IMG/VR virus record: IMGVR_UViG_3300046459_000078
Coordinates: 1-42,498 of that record
Strand: one strand, 5' to 3'
Length of the DNA stretch: 42,498 nucleotides
Source of the DNA: a virus
Each line of letters opens with the position of its first letter. Within the stretch, counting starts at the first letter, position 1. Below the pieces are notes generated by a model. The model saw only the letters and a program-made list of their open reading frames with translations, did no database searches and was not told the DNA's origin. The position numbers and the translations under genes are program-made. Below, in pieces: positions 6,832-14,912 of the stretch.

Positions 6832-6883
6832 CTATAGATACTCTTAAGATACTCTATGGGTTATCTATAGATGTCTTATAGAT
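6832..6883. repeat. CTATAGAT short repeats
   Basis: CTATAGAT occurs at 6832-6839 and 6865-6872, and TTATAGAT at 6876-6883. Related CTATAGA occurs at 7471, 12233 and 12273, all noncoding. The tract is AT-rich against the genome average. It may correspond to the short repeats flanking T7 ends, or to replication-protein sites. Confidence 0.5.
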
Positions 6884-7529: not shown

Positions 7530-7558
7530 TTGACATGCTCTAGTGGATGCCATACAGT
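7530..7558 (+). promoter_or_regulatory. Host sigma-70-type early promoter
   Basis: TTGACA (7530-7535), 17-nt spacer, TACAGT (7553-7558; 4 of 6 to TATAAT). This is the best host-type promoter in the window. Transcription would begin near 7565, just upstream of the first early genes, matching the role of the T7 A promoters. Confidence 0.75.
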
Positions 7559-10350: not shown

Positions 10351-10734
10351 ATGAGCAGCACCACAGCTCTACACGTAGCCGCAGAAGTCCTACAAATCTT
10401 CCGTCAACTCTGTGCTGAGAAGATGGAGAAGCAGGACGTACCGCCGAATATGGTAGTGGTGTTTGCGGAGATTGCAGCGAACCCGGACAGGTCCCTCAGG
10501 GAGTACCAAGAGGCCACAGGTCTGGGCCAAGCTGTGATGTCCCGGAGTGTTGCAGCACTGGGCAGAGGGAACCAAGCGATGGGCCACGGGTTGGGCCTAG
10601 TGACCACCGCAGAGGACCCAACGAACTACAGCAGAAAGATTGTCAGCCTGACCTCCGAGGGGAAGGCAATCCTGGAGCACATTGACGAGAAGCTGGGCAG
10701 ATTCGTCAGAACAAGGCCAGCAGTAAGAGCCTGA
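10351..10734 (+). CDS. MarR-family winged-helix transcriptional regulator
   Basis: A 127-aa protein with the MarR layout. An N-terminal helix is followed by the helix-turn-helix (SLREYQEATGLGQAVMSRSV, residues 48-67), a wing that includes GHGLGLVTTAEDP (78-90), then SRKIVSLTSEGKAILEHI, the family signature. MarR proteins bind palindromic DNA as dimers. Placed just upstream of an integrase and downstream of an operator-like palindrome, it may be the lysogeny repressor or a regulator of integrase. ATG 10351 follows GAAGGGA at ideal distance; an upstream in-frame TTG (10336) lacks this. A terminator follows. Confidence 0.75.
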   Translation: MSSTTALHVAAEVLQIFRQLCAEKMEKQDVPPNMVVVFAEIAANPDRSLREYQEATGLGQAVMSRSVAALGRGNQAMGHGLGLVTTAEDPTNYSRKIVSLTSEGKAILEHIDEKLGRFVRTRPAVRA

Positions 10735-10748
10735 GAGAGCAGCACTGG

Positions 10749-10771
10749 GCCACCTTCGGGTGGCTCTTTTT
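10749..10771 (+). terminator. Intrinsic terminator between regulator and integrase
   Basis: GCCACC-TTCG-GGTGGC (10749-10764), a perfect stem with a UUCG tetraloop, followed by TCTTTTT. It would limit transcription from the regulator into the integrase. Confidence 0.85.
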
Positions 10772-10792
10772 CGTTTACCTTTGGGGATTGGT

Positions 10793-11887
10793 ATGAAGCT
10801 ACGGGGCGATGTATGGTGGTTCGATGGGTACGTCGATGGGAAGCGTGTGCGCAAGTCACTGGGCACCACAGACAAGAAGGAAGCCAAGCGGAAGGAAGCT
10901 GAGCTCCTCGCTGGGGTCACTGAGGTTGCCTCCAAGAAGTCCATCGCTGACTATGGGCCCACCCTCGGGGAAGCCTACAAGAAGGCCATGCGGGAATACA
11001 AACCCTGGCGGGACAGTCCAGATGTGCGGACCATCGATAAGAACCGCAGGGCCATCGAAGACTACTTCACGGCCGGCCGCAAGCTGGCAACCATCGACCG
11101 TGAGGCCATCAACGGCTTCATCGAGCAGATGACCAAGGAAGGAAAGGCGGGGTCCACCATCAACCAGCGTGTGTCCCAGCTCTCAGTTCTGTTCAACGAA
11201 GCCTTGGACAACTGGGGGTATGACAAATTGGTGAAGCCAAGGATTGTCCGTGCCAAGGTAGCAGAGGGCCGCCAGCGCCGCTTCACCAACGAGGAGGTGG
11301 CTGAGGCTATCGAGAGGCTCCAGAAGGCCCCCAAGGACCTCTACGCTGACGTAGCGGACCTCATCAAGGTACTGGCCGATACCGGCATGAGACTGAACGA
11401 GTGCCTGAGTCTCACACGGGCCAACTTCAGCCTTCCCGAGAGGCAGATTGTCCTGTGGGTGACCAAGAACAAGCAGCCCCGTGGTGTCCCCATGACGCCC
11501 CGAGTGTTGGACGTATTGACAGCCCGAGCTCACCTCTCGAAGCCCTTTGGGATGCTCTCAGAGACCTCCGCAACGAGGGCCTGGAGGTGGGTCAGGGAGG
11601 AGATGGGGTTCGCTGATGACCCCGAGTTTGTGATGCACACCCTGCGACATACGGTAGGCTCACGGCTCGCTGATGCCAACGTATCGGCTCCCCTGATTCA
11701 GCAGATGTTAGGCCACAAGTCCCTCAAGACCACCCAGAAGTACATCCATGTGAGTGCCTCGGGGCTGCGTCAGGTTGCTGATATTCTGGCCGCTACTGGG
11801 GCTCCAGCGTGTGACCAAAACTGTGACCAAAGTGTGTCTGAAAGTGACCAAAAGGGCACTCCTGGTGTCTCTAGCGAAGCAGCCTAA
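10793..11887 (+). CDS. int: Tyrosine site-specific integrase
   Basis: A 364-aa tyrosine recombinase. It has an N-terminal arm-binding-like region (DVWWFDGYVDGKRVRKSLG), a SAM-like core-binding domain (about 70-160) and a catalytic domain with Arg200 (TGMRLNECLSL), His282 and Arg285 (HTLRHT), His308 (LGHKS) and Tyr317 (KYIHVS). All key residues are present, so it should be active. It would integrate the phage chromosome into a host attB. ATG 10793 was chosen because the in-frame upstream GTG (10760) lies inside the terminator. The last codons contain three GTGACCAAA repeats that may double as arm sites. Confidence 0.92.
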   Translation: MKLRGDVWWFDGYVDGKRVRKSLGTTDKKEAKRKEAELLAGVTEVASKKSIADYGPTLGEAYKKAMREYKPWRDSPDVRTIDKNRRAIEDYFTAGRKLATIDREAINGFIEQMTKEGKAGSTINQRVSQLSVLFNEALDNWGYDKLVKPRIVRAKVAEGRQRRFTNEEVAEAIERLQKAPKDLYADVADLIKVLADTGMRLNECLSLTRANFSLPERQIVLWVTKNKQPRGVPMTPRVLDVLTARAHLSKPFGMLSETSATRAWRWVREEMGFADDPEFVMHTLRHTVGSRLADANVSAPLIQQMLGHKSLKTTQKYIHVSASGLRQVADILAATGAPACDQNCDQSVSESDQKGTPGVSSEAA

Positions 11888-12073
11888 GTCTCTGAATTCA
11901 AACGATAATGTTCCGTCTGGTGACCTGTCCGAGCAGGATGGGTCGTCCTCGGGCAACGGCAATAGGAGCATGTCATGACCGACTTGAACCCGTTGTAAAT
12001 CAGGCAGTTACACGATAGTTTCCCCATCTGGCACATCCACTTACGCATACGCGTGACCACGTTTGTGACCAAA
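11811..12073. other. Candidate attP region with repeated arm-type sites
   Basis: GTGACCAAA occurs at 11811, 11823, 11844 and 12065, and GTGACCA(C) at 12053. The left pair 11811/11823 and the right pair 12053/12065 share the same 12-nt spacing, in direct orientation, with about 200 nt between the groups. Such direct repeats on both sides of a core are typical of integrase arm sites. The crossover core should lie between about 11853 and 12052. The minus strand near 11979-11991 reads GGGTTCAAGTC, like a tRNA T-loop, a common att location, but no tRNA fold can be completed. Confidence 0.55.
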
Positions 12074-12123
12074 GCTCTTTCCAAAAGTCTCCCTCCTGTT
12101 GTCCTTCTGATTCCCATACGGCC

Positions 12124-12142
12124 TTAACCCTCACTCTCGCAG
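12124..12142 (+). promoter_or_regulatory. Phage RNA polymerase promoter P2 upstream of the polymerase gene
   Basis: An identical TTAACCCTCACTCTCGCAG core with +1 at G12139. It shares the upstream GGCC of P1. It lies between the candidate attP and the RNA polymerase start and would allow the polymerase to transcribe its own gene. Confidence 0.85.
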
Positions 12143-12172
12143 GACGAACGCTGACATCCTGTTAGCGGTTAT

Positions 12173-12193
12173 CCTAGTACTAAGACTACTAGG
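12173..12193. promoter_or_regulatory. Inverted repeat CCTAGTA-N7-TACTAGG
   Basis: A perfect 7-bp inverted repeat in the leader of the RNA polymerase gene. Its size suits a protein-binding operator; as RNA it would be a weak hairpin. Confidence 0.4.
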
Positions 12194-12253
12194 CTAAGTT
12201 CCGTATTGTGGGAAGACCACAGAATCAATGACCTATAGAATAAAACTATCTAT

Positions 12254-12281
12254 TTGACACATAGGATTGACTCTATAGATT
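12254..12281 (+). promoter_or_regulatory. Candidate host promoter for RNA polymerase, with CATAGGA in the spacer
   Basis: TTGACA (12254-12259), 16-nt spacer, TAGATT (12276-12281; 4 of 6). CATAGGA (12260-12266) follows the -35 box directly; the same heptamer is part of the operator-like region at 10031-10037. This suggests shared repression but is not proof. Confidence 0.45.
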
Positions 12282-12306
12282 CCCTGAAGATGGCTACACA
12301 ATTGAC

Positions 12307-12324
12307 GTAGGGTGTAATCCCTAC
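12307..12324. promoter_or_regulatory. Inverted repeat GTAGGG-N6-CCCTAC
   Basis: A perfect 6-bp inverted repeat about 25 nt downstream of the candidate host promoter's -10 box, within the leader of the polymerase gene. It could be an operator or an RNA stem. Confidence 0.4.
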
Positions 12325-12426
12325 CAGTACACACTGTAAATAAATCGTGGAAGAGTTCCTCTAATGGATGTATTCCTGATATAGTCTTACCGTAGTAGGA
12401 AACGTAAGTTCAAGGCTTCCCGCGCA

Positions 12427-12468
12427 ATGACGCAGGAGGAATTTTTATTGTCCGAAGCTACCCACTAA
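12427..12468 (+). CDS. Possible 13-codon leader ORF before RNA polymerase
   Basis: ATG 12427 opens MTQEEFLLSEATH, with TAA at 12466-12468, 11 nt before the polymerase ATG. The strongest Shine-Dalgarno sequence of the leader, AGGAGGA (12434-12440), lies inside it and is ideally spaced for an in-frame TTG at 12448. The polymerase gene itself has a weaker AAGGGA. It may be a translational control element. Confidence 0.35.
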   Translation: MTQEEFLLSEATH

Positions 12469-12479
12469 GGGAACACATC

Positions 12480-14912
12480 ATGACCACGAACACATCCAGC
12501 ATCGACCTCCAAGCCCTCCAAATCGAACTCGAAGAGGAATCGATTGGTCTCGGGATGAAGCGCTACAACGAAGCCCTGAAGCAGGGTGAAGACATGATGC
12601 CTCCTGGTCTTCAGATGATTAAGGCAGCCGTGGAGCCCACCGCCCTTGTCATTGACAAATTCATTGAGGATGGTCTGTCAGGCAAGGCCAACCGCTCGGT
12701 AGGCGTGGTTCGCTTCCTTGACCAGTTCCCTGACCGCAAGCTGGTGGCATTCGTCACAGCAAAGGTGGTCATGAACCACATCTCCAGCATGTCGATGGTC
12801 GGTGCTGTTGCTGGTGACATCGCCAACCGCCTCGAAGATTGTCTGAACTTTGACGAGCTCAAGAAGGCTGAACCGGCCCTCTATAAGCAACTGCTGAAGA
12901 AGATTGAGAACTCCCGCGATGAGCGCCACCGCCACATCGTGCTCCGTGTGCAGCAGAAGTACGCCAAGGTGGTCCCGATTAAATGGGGCAAGTCGGAGAA
13001 GGTACGCCTGGGTATGGCCCTCATCTCGATGTTCCAGGAAGCTACGGGCCTTGTGGAGGTCCAGACCTTCGTCCGTGGCGCCAATGACACCCCGCACATC
13101 GTGGTTCCCACTGAAGAGACCGCCAAGTGGCTCGCCAACGGCCACGCTCGGTGTGCCCTTATGTCCCCTATGGCGATGCCTATGGTGGTCAAGCCGCGCC
13201 CCTGGACCAGCCCGTTCGGTGGTGGCTACCTGACCAAGCCGATGCGCTTCCCGCTCATCAAGACTGGCAACCGAAACTACCTGGAGGACCTGAAGCAGGT
13301 CTCCATGCCGATGGTCTACAAGGCCGTCAATGCCCTCCAAGACACCCCGTGGGCCATCAACACGGCCATCCTGCATGTGATGAAGGAAGTCTGGGACAAC
13401 GGTGGCCGCCTCGGTAAGCTGCCCCACCGGGACCCGATGCCCCTCCCTACGAAGACCTTTGACCTCGATACGCCTGACCCGGAGGAGCTCAAGGCGTGGA
13501 AGAAGCAGGCAGCACAGGTGTATGAGGGCAACATCCGCGCAGCATCCAAGCGGGCCTCGATGTCCAGCAAGCTGTGGATGGCCGAGAAGTTCGAAAACAT
13601 CGAAGCCTTCTACTACGTTCACAATCTGGACTGGCGCGGCCGTGCGTACCCGGTGGCCACCTTCCTGAACCCGCAGGGTGCCGACAGTGACAAGGCGCTC
13701 CTGCAGTTCTCGGAAGGGAAAGCACTGGGGGACAATGGTGCTCGCTGGTTGGCCATCCACGGCGCCAACACCTTCGGCATCGACAAGGTGACCTTCGATG
13801 AGCGTGTTCAGTGGGTCATCGACCATCAGGACCAAATCCTGGAGGCCGCTATCAACCCGCTGGACGGTTCCCGCTGGTGGGCCGATGCTGACAGCCCCTA
13901 TATGTTCCTGGCCTTCTGCTACGAGTGGCTCGCCCTCTCGATGCACACGGACCTTGGCAACAGCCAGCAGGACTTCGTAAGCCACCTCCCGTGCTCGTGG
14001 GATGGCGCATGTAATGGCCTGCAGAACTTCTCGGCCCTCCTTCGGGATGAAGTGGGCGGTGCTGCGGTTGGCTTGGTCCCCAGCGATAAGCCGAGTGACA
14101 TCTACAGTGAAGTGGCGAAGGCCGCCAACATGCTGATGCAGGCTGACGCTGACGAAGGTATCGAACTGGGCCAGAAGTGGGCCGGTAAGATGACCCGCAA
14201 GCTCTCCAAGCCCAACACCATGACCACGCCTTACGGTGCCACCAAGCGTGGGATGTGTCAGCAGATTGAAGGTGTCTTCCAGAAGATGAAGGCTGATGGC
14301 GCTGAAGTCACTGCGGACCTGAAGGACTGCCAGTACCTCGCCAATACCAACTATCAGGCTATCGGCAAGGTGGTAGTGGCCGCTCACTTGGCTATGGACT
14401 GGCTGAAGGAAGCCGCACGGGTGGCAGCATCCAACGGCCTCCCGGTCCACTGGAATACCCCGAGTGGCCTGCTGGTGCTCCAGAGCTACCGTGAGCAGGT
14501 GGGCAAGCGCCTGGACATGGTGGTTGCTGGTGTGCGTGTGCAGCTCATGCTGAAGAGCGACGGTGACAAGCTGGATGGCCGTAAGCAATCTGCAGGCATC
14601 TCCCCGAACTTCATCCACTCGCTCGATGCGGCTCACATGATGCGCACGGTGGCCTACTGTATTGATGCAGGCATCTCGGACTTCGCAATGATCCATGACA
14701 GCTACGGTAGCCATGCGGGTTCCGCTGAGGCACTGCGGGATTGCCTGCGGGAAGCCTTCGTGGACCAGTACAGCGGTGATGTGCTGGCAGACTTCAAGGC
14801 TCAGTTGGTTGCCCAGTTGCCCGAAGCGCTGGCCGCTGAGATTCCCGAACTGCCCCCGATGGGCAACCTGGATTTGAATTTGGTCCTCCAATCGGAGTAT
14901 TTCTTTGCCTAA
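12480..14912 (+). CDS. Single-subunit T7-type RNA polymerase
   Basis: An 810-aa protein, against 883 in T7. The catalytic residues are Asp508 (WDGACNG), Lys577 and Tyr585 (KPNTMTTPYG) and Asp740 (MIHDSYG), matching T7 D537, K631, Y639 and D812. The specificity loop reads KRLDMVVAGVRVQ: Arg677, Asp679, Arg686 and Gln688 correspond to T7 R746, N748, R756 and Q758, with one residue fewer between. Asp in place of Asn748 is the T3-type state, and the promoters found here have the T3 -15 to -4 sequence. It transcribes middle and late genes. The C-terminus ends YFFA, like T7 FAFA. Confidence 0.95.
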   Translation: MTTNTSSIDLQALQIELEEESIGLGMKRYNEALKQGEDMMPPGLQMIKAAVEPTALVIDKFIEDGLSGKANRSVGVVRFLDQFPDRKLVAFVTAKVVMNHISSMSMVGAVAGDIANRLEDCLNFDELKKAEPALYKQLLKKIENSRDERHRHIVLRVQQKYAKVVPIKWGKSEKVRLGMALISMFQEATGLVEVQTFVRGANDTPHIVVPTEETAKWLANGHARCALMSPMAMPMVVKPRPWTSPFGGGYLTKPMRFPLIKTGNRNYLEDLKQVSMPMVYKAVNALQDTPWAINTAILHVMKEVWDNGGRLGKLPHRDPMPLPTKTFDLDTPDPEELKAWKKQAAQVYEGNIRAASKRASMSSKLWMAEKFENIEAFYYVHNLDWRGRAYPVATFLNPQGADSDKALLQFSEGKALGDNGARWLAIHGANTFGIDKVTFDERVQWVIDHQDQILEAAINPLDGSRWWADADSPYMFLAFCYEWLALSMHTDLGNSQQDFVSHLPCSWDGACNGLQNFSALLRDEVGGAAVGLVPSDKPSDIYSEVAKAANMLMQADADEGIELGQKWAGKMTRKLSKPNTMTTPYGATKRGMCQQIEGVFQKMKADGAEVTADLKDCQYLANTNYQAIGKVVVAAHLAMDWLKEAARVAASNGLPVHWNTPSGLLVLQSYREQVGKRLDMVVAGVRVQLMLKSDGDKLDGRKQSAGISPNFIHSLDAAHMMRTVAYCIDAGISDFAMIHDSYGSHAGSAEALRDCLREAFVDQYSGDVLADFKAQLVAQLPEALAAEIPELPPMGNLDLNLVLQSEYFFA

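Follow-up and report, generated by a model that had tools for sequence, protein, structure and literature searches.

Organization of the Locus

The sequence analyzed here, hereafter called the window, is the whole 42,498-base stretch of the virus record IMGVR_UViG_3300046459_000078, which represents a T7-like soil phage. In its early region, the gene of a tyrosine integrase (int) precedes the gene of a T7-type single-subunit RNA polymerase (RNAP), and the interval between the two holds the phage attachment site (attP) that is the main subject of this work. The window further encodes a tail fibre and a single-strand binding protein. The organization is that of the temperate T7-like (Autographiviridae-type) phages, with the single-subunit RNAP closing the early region and accompanied by phage-specific promoters, replication and head genes of the T7 type (primase-helicase, T7-type DNA polymerase, head-tail adaptor, and large terminase), and the tyrosine integrase upstream of the RNAP. 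A chromosomal prophage was found for a relative in Paraburkholderia susongensis and not for the window phage itself. A tRNA gene as the bacterial attachment site (attB), which is usual in this group but not defining, was not found; the attP matches instead the 5′ end of a protein gene of the DUF2760 family. The close relatives of the phage are viral contigs from metagenomes, and the nearest RNAPs of isolated phages, that of LUZ100 among them, are ~40% identical to the window RNAP. The features discussed below are collected in Table 1.

Table 1. Positions of the genes and sequence elements considered in the window
Feature	Positions	Strand	Evidence or remarks
Early sigma-70 promoter, TTGACA-17-TACAGT	7530-7558	+	10/12 match
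MarR-like regulator (ATG 10351)	10351-10734	+	phrog_9665; AlphaFold2 pLDDT 82.7
Candidate terminator T1, between regulator and int	10747-10775	+	hairpin of -15.4 kcal/mol followed by TTTTTCGTTT
Tyrosine integrase (int)	10793-11887	+	phrog_1, E 1.7e-56; PF00589
Putative P-arm integrase sites, TGTGACCAAA twice, inside the int 3′ end	11810-11831	+	copies at 11810 and 11822; the 10-mer recurs on the other arm
attP identity block, copy of the host DUF2760 gene 5′ end	11935-11993	+	differs from host loci L087/L089 at 1 of 59 bp
Host-derived Shine-Dalgarno AGGAG, ATG, and first six codons (MTDLNP)	11963-11998	+	in the phage, one more codon, then TAA
Likely attP core, GACCGACTTGAACCCGT	11977-11993	+	right end of the identity block
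Putative P′-arm integrase sites, CGTGACCA and TGTGACCAAA	12052-12073	+	TGTGACCAAA copy at 12064
Phage RNAP promoter, TTAACCCTCACTCTCGCAG	12124-12142	+	one of five copies in the window; motif common to relatives; altered form in the leader of the P. susongensis prophage
Conserved dyad ATCCTAGTA-N7-TACTAGG, candidate operator	12171-12193	+	occurs once in the window; retained in L009 and L011-L016
TATAGT, possible extended -10 of a host promoter for the RNAP	12380-12385	+	~100 bases upstream of the RNAP in all relatives; no good -35 accompanies it
Candidate terminator T2, directly before the RNAP	12416-12450	+	8-pair stem, then TTTTTATT
T7-type single-subunit RNA polymerase (RNAP)	12480-14912	+	phrog_414, E 2.5e-249

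The early promoter at 7530 is the site from which, according to an earlier note on this DNA, host polymerase can read through the early genes and int into the RNAP gene. It is one of only two sites in the whole window with at least 10/12 matches to the sigma-70 consensus, and a similar TTGACA site recurs in all relatives checked (L007, L009, L011-L016, and the P. susongensis prophage, at C21:151432). The phage promoter that the note had placed before the RNAP at 12124 likewise stands, being one of five copies of a T3-like motif (6795, 12124, 14952, 15248, and 27816; two copies with one change). A second putative promoter, at 12254, is retained in the closest relative only. Repeats of CTATAGAT (6832-6872 and 12273), one of them a full palindrome, ATCTATAGAT, lie shortly downstream of the phage promoters at 6795 and 12124.

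The Attachment Site

The identity block between int and the RNAP falls inside the interval of 11853-12052 that had been put forward for the attP, and also inside the limits of 11887-12124 within which the earlier proposal requires the core to lie. It comprises the end of the leader, the Shine-Dalgarno sequence, the ATG, and six codons of a DUF2760 gene of the Burkholderiaceae, and its match to L087/L089 has an E value of ~5e-23 per genome. The sister phages L006/L010 match this host sequence at 59/59 positions, and the match between L012 and another host variant, L086, covers 61/61 bases, so that phage and host variants occur as pairs (L006 with L087/L089, L012 with L086); the centre of L015 resembles the Caballeronia copy of DUF2760. 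Of 398 genomes searched in the P. susongensis family, 5 contain the 17-mer GACCGACTTGAACCCGT and 0 its backward control, and all five matches fall at one place, a gene 5′ end, with the match running on upstream.

The host open reading frame (L087:1499-2050) belongs to DUF2760 (PF10816, E 3.5e-56) and adjoins an Hsp70 gene in annotated plasmid records; the literature searched contains no mention of DUF2760. At five of six loci, a promoter-like site (CTTGACTT...GAGAAT) is kept 308-349 bases upstream of the DUF2760 ATG. The leader of this gene also has a hairpin (L087:1459-1490, L086, L085, and L101) with a compensatory change from GAGGA/TCCTC to GGGGA/TCCCC, the phage copy of which has no Rfam match.

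The core is likely to occupy the right-hand end of the block, because the tRNA-type sites of the relatives (tRNA-Lys in P. susongensis, tRNA-Leu in L016, and tRNA-Cys in Xanthobacter) have the common pattern GACTnnnAATCC, and we infer that GACTTGAACCC of the window, one base shorter, is its counterpart. An alignment of the int-RNAP interval over twelve relatives revealed a variable centre with short repeats to its left and right, which is the architecture of a lambda-type tyrosine integrase attP, a core flanked by repeated arm-type sites. The three copies of TGTGACCAAA in the window were equalled in 0 of 200 shuffles. The arm repeats vary among the phages but agree between the two arms of each, as in L016, which has TGTGCCCAAA on both arms, and L015, which has a similar pair. 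In L016, the corresponding stretch of the alignment, again between the same arm sites, reads as half of a tRNA-Leu(CAA), the 3′ half running from the anticodon loop to CCA. A protein-gene 5′ end appears to be a new kind of attachment site for temperate T7-like phages.

Joining the window and L087 at the common core gives the predicted junctions. At the integrase end (attR, int side followed by CCCGTCATTTTTCGGC), the DUF2760 start would be intact (MTDLNPSFFGRMS...), and at the RNAP end (attL, host leader followed by CCCGTTGTAAATCAGG), a seven-codon frame, MTDLNPL, would be followed by a stop.

The Rfam search of 11700-12500 returned no known RNA, and a corrected pattern scan of viral contigs returned only contigs of phages already in the comparison. 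A possible tRNA-Lys 3′ end at 12108-12125 (14/16) was rejected, its T-arm being mismatched and its position outside the arm sites. Among near-identical phages, two core alleles, CATGACCGACTTGAACCCGT and GGGCATCGACTGAAATCCGT, alternate (window 11974-11993 as compared with L008/L009/L011/L013), which suggests exchange at the attP or a second attB. In L006, L010, L017, and L022, ~430 extra bases between attP and RNAP, in the RNAP leader, contain what reads as an HNH-endonuclease-like frame.

Geometry of Related Prophages

The P. susongensis prophage (L039, G001:C21) encodes an RNAP 79% identical to that of the window. A complete tRNA-Lys(TTT) gene stands directly before this RNAP, the prophage integrase (46-47% identity) lies ~40 kb away on the same strand, and a 50-bp repeat of the tRNA-Lys 3′ half after the integrase constitutes the att repeat bounding the prophage. 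A total of 29 of the 37 window proteins map to the prophage in unbroken order, with the RNAP first and the integrase last, and compared with the window the prophage is cut exactly between int and RNAP. The early promoter, the regulator, and the integrase are all at the end opposite to the RNAP, and the RNAP is not downstream of them.

Prophages with the RNAP at one end and the integrase at the other, for which the earlier note had recommended a search, were thus found in P. susongensis and also in two Xanthobacter genomes, where a 17-bp repeat occurs 142 bp before the RNAP and 163 bp after int. In Xanthobacter, it is the integrase end that carries the intact tRNA-Cys, which points the opposite way; the orientation to the host gene is thus not conserved. 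At the RNAP loci of a Paracoccus metagenome-assembled genome, G144, G261, and one of two in G401, a same-strand integrase lies ~40-44 kb downstream of the RNAP, and the 40-kb contig of G389 begins with a tRNA-Leu (read from the sequence) and the RNAP and ends with the integrase. The opposite-end geometry is common, not universal, and the int-attP-RNAP order does commonly lead to the separation of the RNAP. Close relatives switch between attachment sites (tRNA-Lys, tRNA-Leu, and the protein-gene 5′ end) and yet keep this order.

A different and shorter arrangement is seen in G373:C1 (2.56-2.59 Mb), G115:C1 (3.43-3.46 Mb), and the other locus of G401:C1 (2.37-2.40 Mb), where the nearest integrases are ~22 kb off on the opposite strand. 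In further counter-examples, the integrase is ~11 kb upstream of the RNAP (G359) or ~12 kb downstream (G244). All of these RNAP-bearing loci, which do not have the opposite-end geometry of int and RNAP, encode distant RNAPs. The ends of the L015 and L033 contigs between int and RNAP were considered as prophage ends and rejected, as they are contig breaks inside the leader.

Terminators, Promoters, and Regulator

The free read-through from 7530 into the RNAP assumed by the earlier note is difficult to reconcile with two conserved candidate terminators, T1, which closes the regulator gene before int, and T2. All relatives examined have T1, although its stem sequence differs in L015 and its form in P. 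susongensis is weaker. In the T2 stem, 98.4% of the cells of the alignment are paired, as compared with 39-72% for slid controls, four pairs show compensatory change, and the tail is the sole run of five T within 11891-12480. T2 was not among the sites that a generic terminator scan reported for the window, and the class total of that scan was 8, compared with 7.4 in shuffles; since such a scan is no better than shuffles, the case for T1 and T2 rests on conservation.

Nor would integration leave the RNAP with its leader promoters alone, as had been supposed, because it brings host promoters upstream of the gene. The tRNA-Lys promoter of P. susongensis (TTGACA-17-TATAAT, 12/12 matches to the sigma-70 consensus) faces the RNAP, and at the DUF2760 site the conserved promoter-like site is predicted to sit ~0.3 kb upstream of the RNAP-end junction in the same direction. 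Between the tRNA-Lys promoter and the RNAP of P. susongensis there are a -28.7 kcal/mol fold with a T-tract and the counterpart of T2; such an extra terminator-like hairpin between tRNA and RNAP is also present, by sequence, in G389.

The model of the regulator finds its best PDB matches in PcaV, MarR, MexR, and SlyA (E down to 1.8e-6). Foldseek assigns it to the MarR winged-helix proteins 4fht and 3bpx with a probability of 1.00 but a TM score of only 0.5-0.6, and the sequence match to the MarR family is weak (E 0.061). The regulator is 76-99% identical in the relatives. In P. susongensis the value is 77%, compared with 46-47% for the integrase, and the regulator has therefore been retained while integrases and integration sites were exchanged. 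Judging from the modeled fold, it would act in trans. The leader that travels with the RNAP in both states contains the phage promoter, the dyad, the TATAGT at 12380, and T2.

Probable Silencing of the RNAP in the Prophage

With a probability that we put at roughly 0.7, the locus is the integration module of a temperate T7-like phage whose RNAP is held off in the lysogen mainly by the regulator and T2. The module would consist, in this order, of the early promoter, the early genes, the MarR-like regulator, T1, the integrase, the attP, and the RNAP leader ending in T2. Int would recombine near 11977-11993, by which DUF2760 would be rebuilt at the integrase end from the leader, ribosome site, start codon, and codons 1-6 carried by the phage. 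The host promoter would go to the RNAP end, where translation in the host frame would stop after seven codons. In the lysogen, the RNAP would then be silenced mainly by the regulator and T2, in their candidate roles of repressor and terminator, and the lost read-through from the early promoter would be a secondary contribution at most. The conservation of the terminators together with the MarR-like regulator suggests that these probably keep the prophage RNAP silent. On the question of how temperate T7-like phages silence a strong RNAP as prophages, the present data offer predicted junctions, two conserved candidate terminators, a regulator, and a candidate operator.

Several observations weigh against this reading. 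No integrated copy of the window phage was found at the DUF2760 site, and the crossover and both junctions are predictions. For the core allele CATCGACTGAAATCCGT, carried by the sister phages L008/L009/L011, a search of 349 Burkholderiaceae genomes gave no match. P. susongensis lacks the dyad at 12171 despite its 77% identical regulator, which leaves the dyad a candidate operator of the regulator.

The earlier note had gone further and proposed that host polymerase supplies the RNAP by reading from 7530 through int during infection, and that integration removes this supply and thereby sets lysogeny. The physical separation on which this depends is seen in the collinear P. susongensis prophage, the geometry recurs in Xanthobacter, the early promoter is conserved, and a supply of RNAP by read-through from the lysogeny operon has also been proposed for LUZ100 (PMC10134795). 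However, the conserved T1 and T2 intervene between the early promoter and the RNAP, and host promoters face the RNAP in the prophage. T7-like cyanophages, in addition, integrate without a recognised repressor and without forming stable lysogens, which argues that among them integration is not enough to silence the lytic cycle (PMC8776855). With a regulator that would act in trans, a leader that stays with the RNAP in both states, and a host orientation and geometry that are not conserved throughout, we consider a switch by topology unlikely; the separation is probably not the switch itself, and its role is probably minor.

A still less probable explanation is promoter capture, in which the RNAP is driven by the host DUF2760-Hsp70 promoter and gated by T2, and the host state triggers induction. 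The promoter-like site near the predicted junction and the 12/12 promoter facing the RNAP in P. susongensis are in line with it, but the host context varies among near relatives, from tRNA-Lys to tRNA-Leu to DUF2760, and has the reverse orientation in Xanthobacter, and the extra hairpin in P. susongensis and G389 stands between tRNA and RNAP. The related idea that integration swaps promoters, the host one going to the T2-gated RNAP and the integrase-side phage transcription going to the host gene with a leader and start codon supplied by the phage, is improbable to the same degree; if true, the prophage could read the host state through the captured promoter. Finally, that the 59-bp match is a common leader sequence or recombination debris, with the true core elsewhere in 11860-12060, is very improbable, since L016 has its tRNA-Leu half between these arm sites at the corresponding point of the alignment, exact matches exist for two different pairs of phage and host variants, and Rfam finds no known RNA, even though L008/L009/L011 match over only 39 bp and carry another core and no integrated copy was seen.

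Comparison with Known Systems

The locus can be compared with several known systems. In the integration-dependent immunity of mycobacteriophages (Broussard 2013), recombination itself changes the regulatory output, as it may here. In that system the attP is reportedly inside the repressor gene and recombination changes the repressor protein, whereas in the window phage no coding part of the regulator or the RNAP would be changed. In the sib retroregulation of lambda int, a gene and its control element likewise come to lie apart, across the attP, when the phage integrates; this concerns integrase expression, whereas the window case concerns the lytic activator.

The Pseudomonas phage LUZ100, which is T7-like with temperate features, has the same order of MarR-like regulator, integrase, and RNAP, with a phage promoter before an RNAP that is only 40.5% identical to that of the window (PMC10134795). 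Its strong terminator is after int, whereas T1 of the window phage is before int and T2 before the RNAP. It was proposed that in LUZ100 the host polymerase reaches the RNAP only by leaking through the terminator, that the RNAP then amplifies itself, and that the MarR protein represses in lysogeny (PMC10134795); by analogy, the leader and regulator arrangement of the window agrees with this proposal. The words attP and attachment are absent from the LUZ100 paper (PMC10134795). New here are the position of the attP, the attB at a protein-gene 5′ end, and the two conserved terminators.

In the T7-like cyanophages P-SSP7 and S-TIP37, for which integration has been demonstrated, the attP is also directly downstream of the integrase gene, but the attB is a tRNA-Leu rather than a protein gene, and no repressor has been found, in contrast to the MarR-like regulator of the window phage (PMC8776855). 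For the temperate T7-like phage Pasto and related prophages (reference 14 of PMC10134795), a MarR-like regulator has, according to the citing text, been proposed to repress the RNAP.

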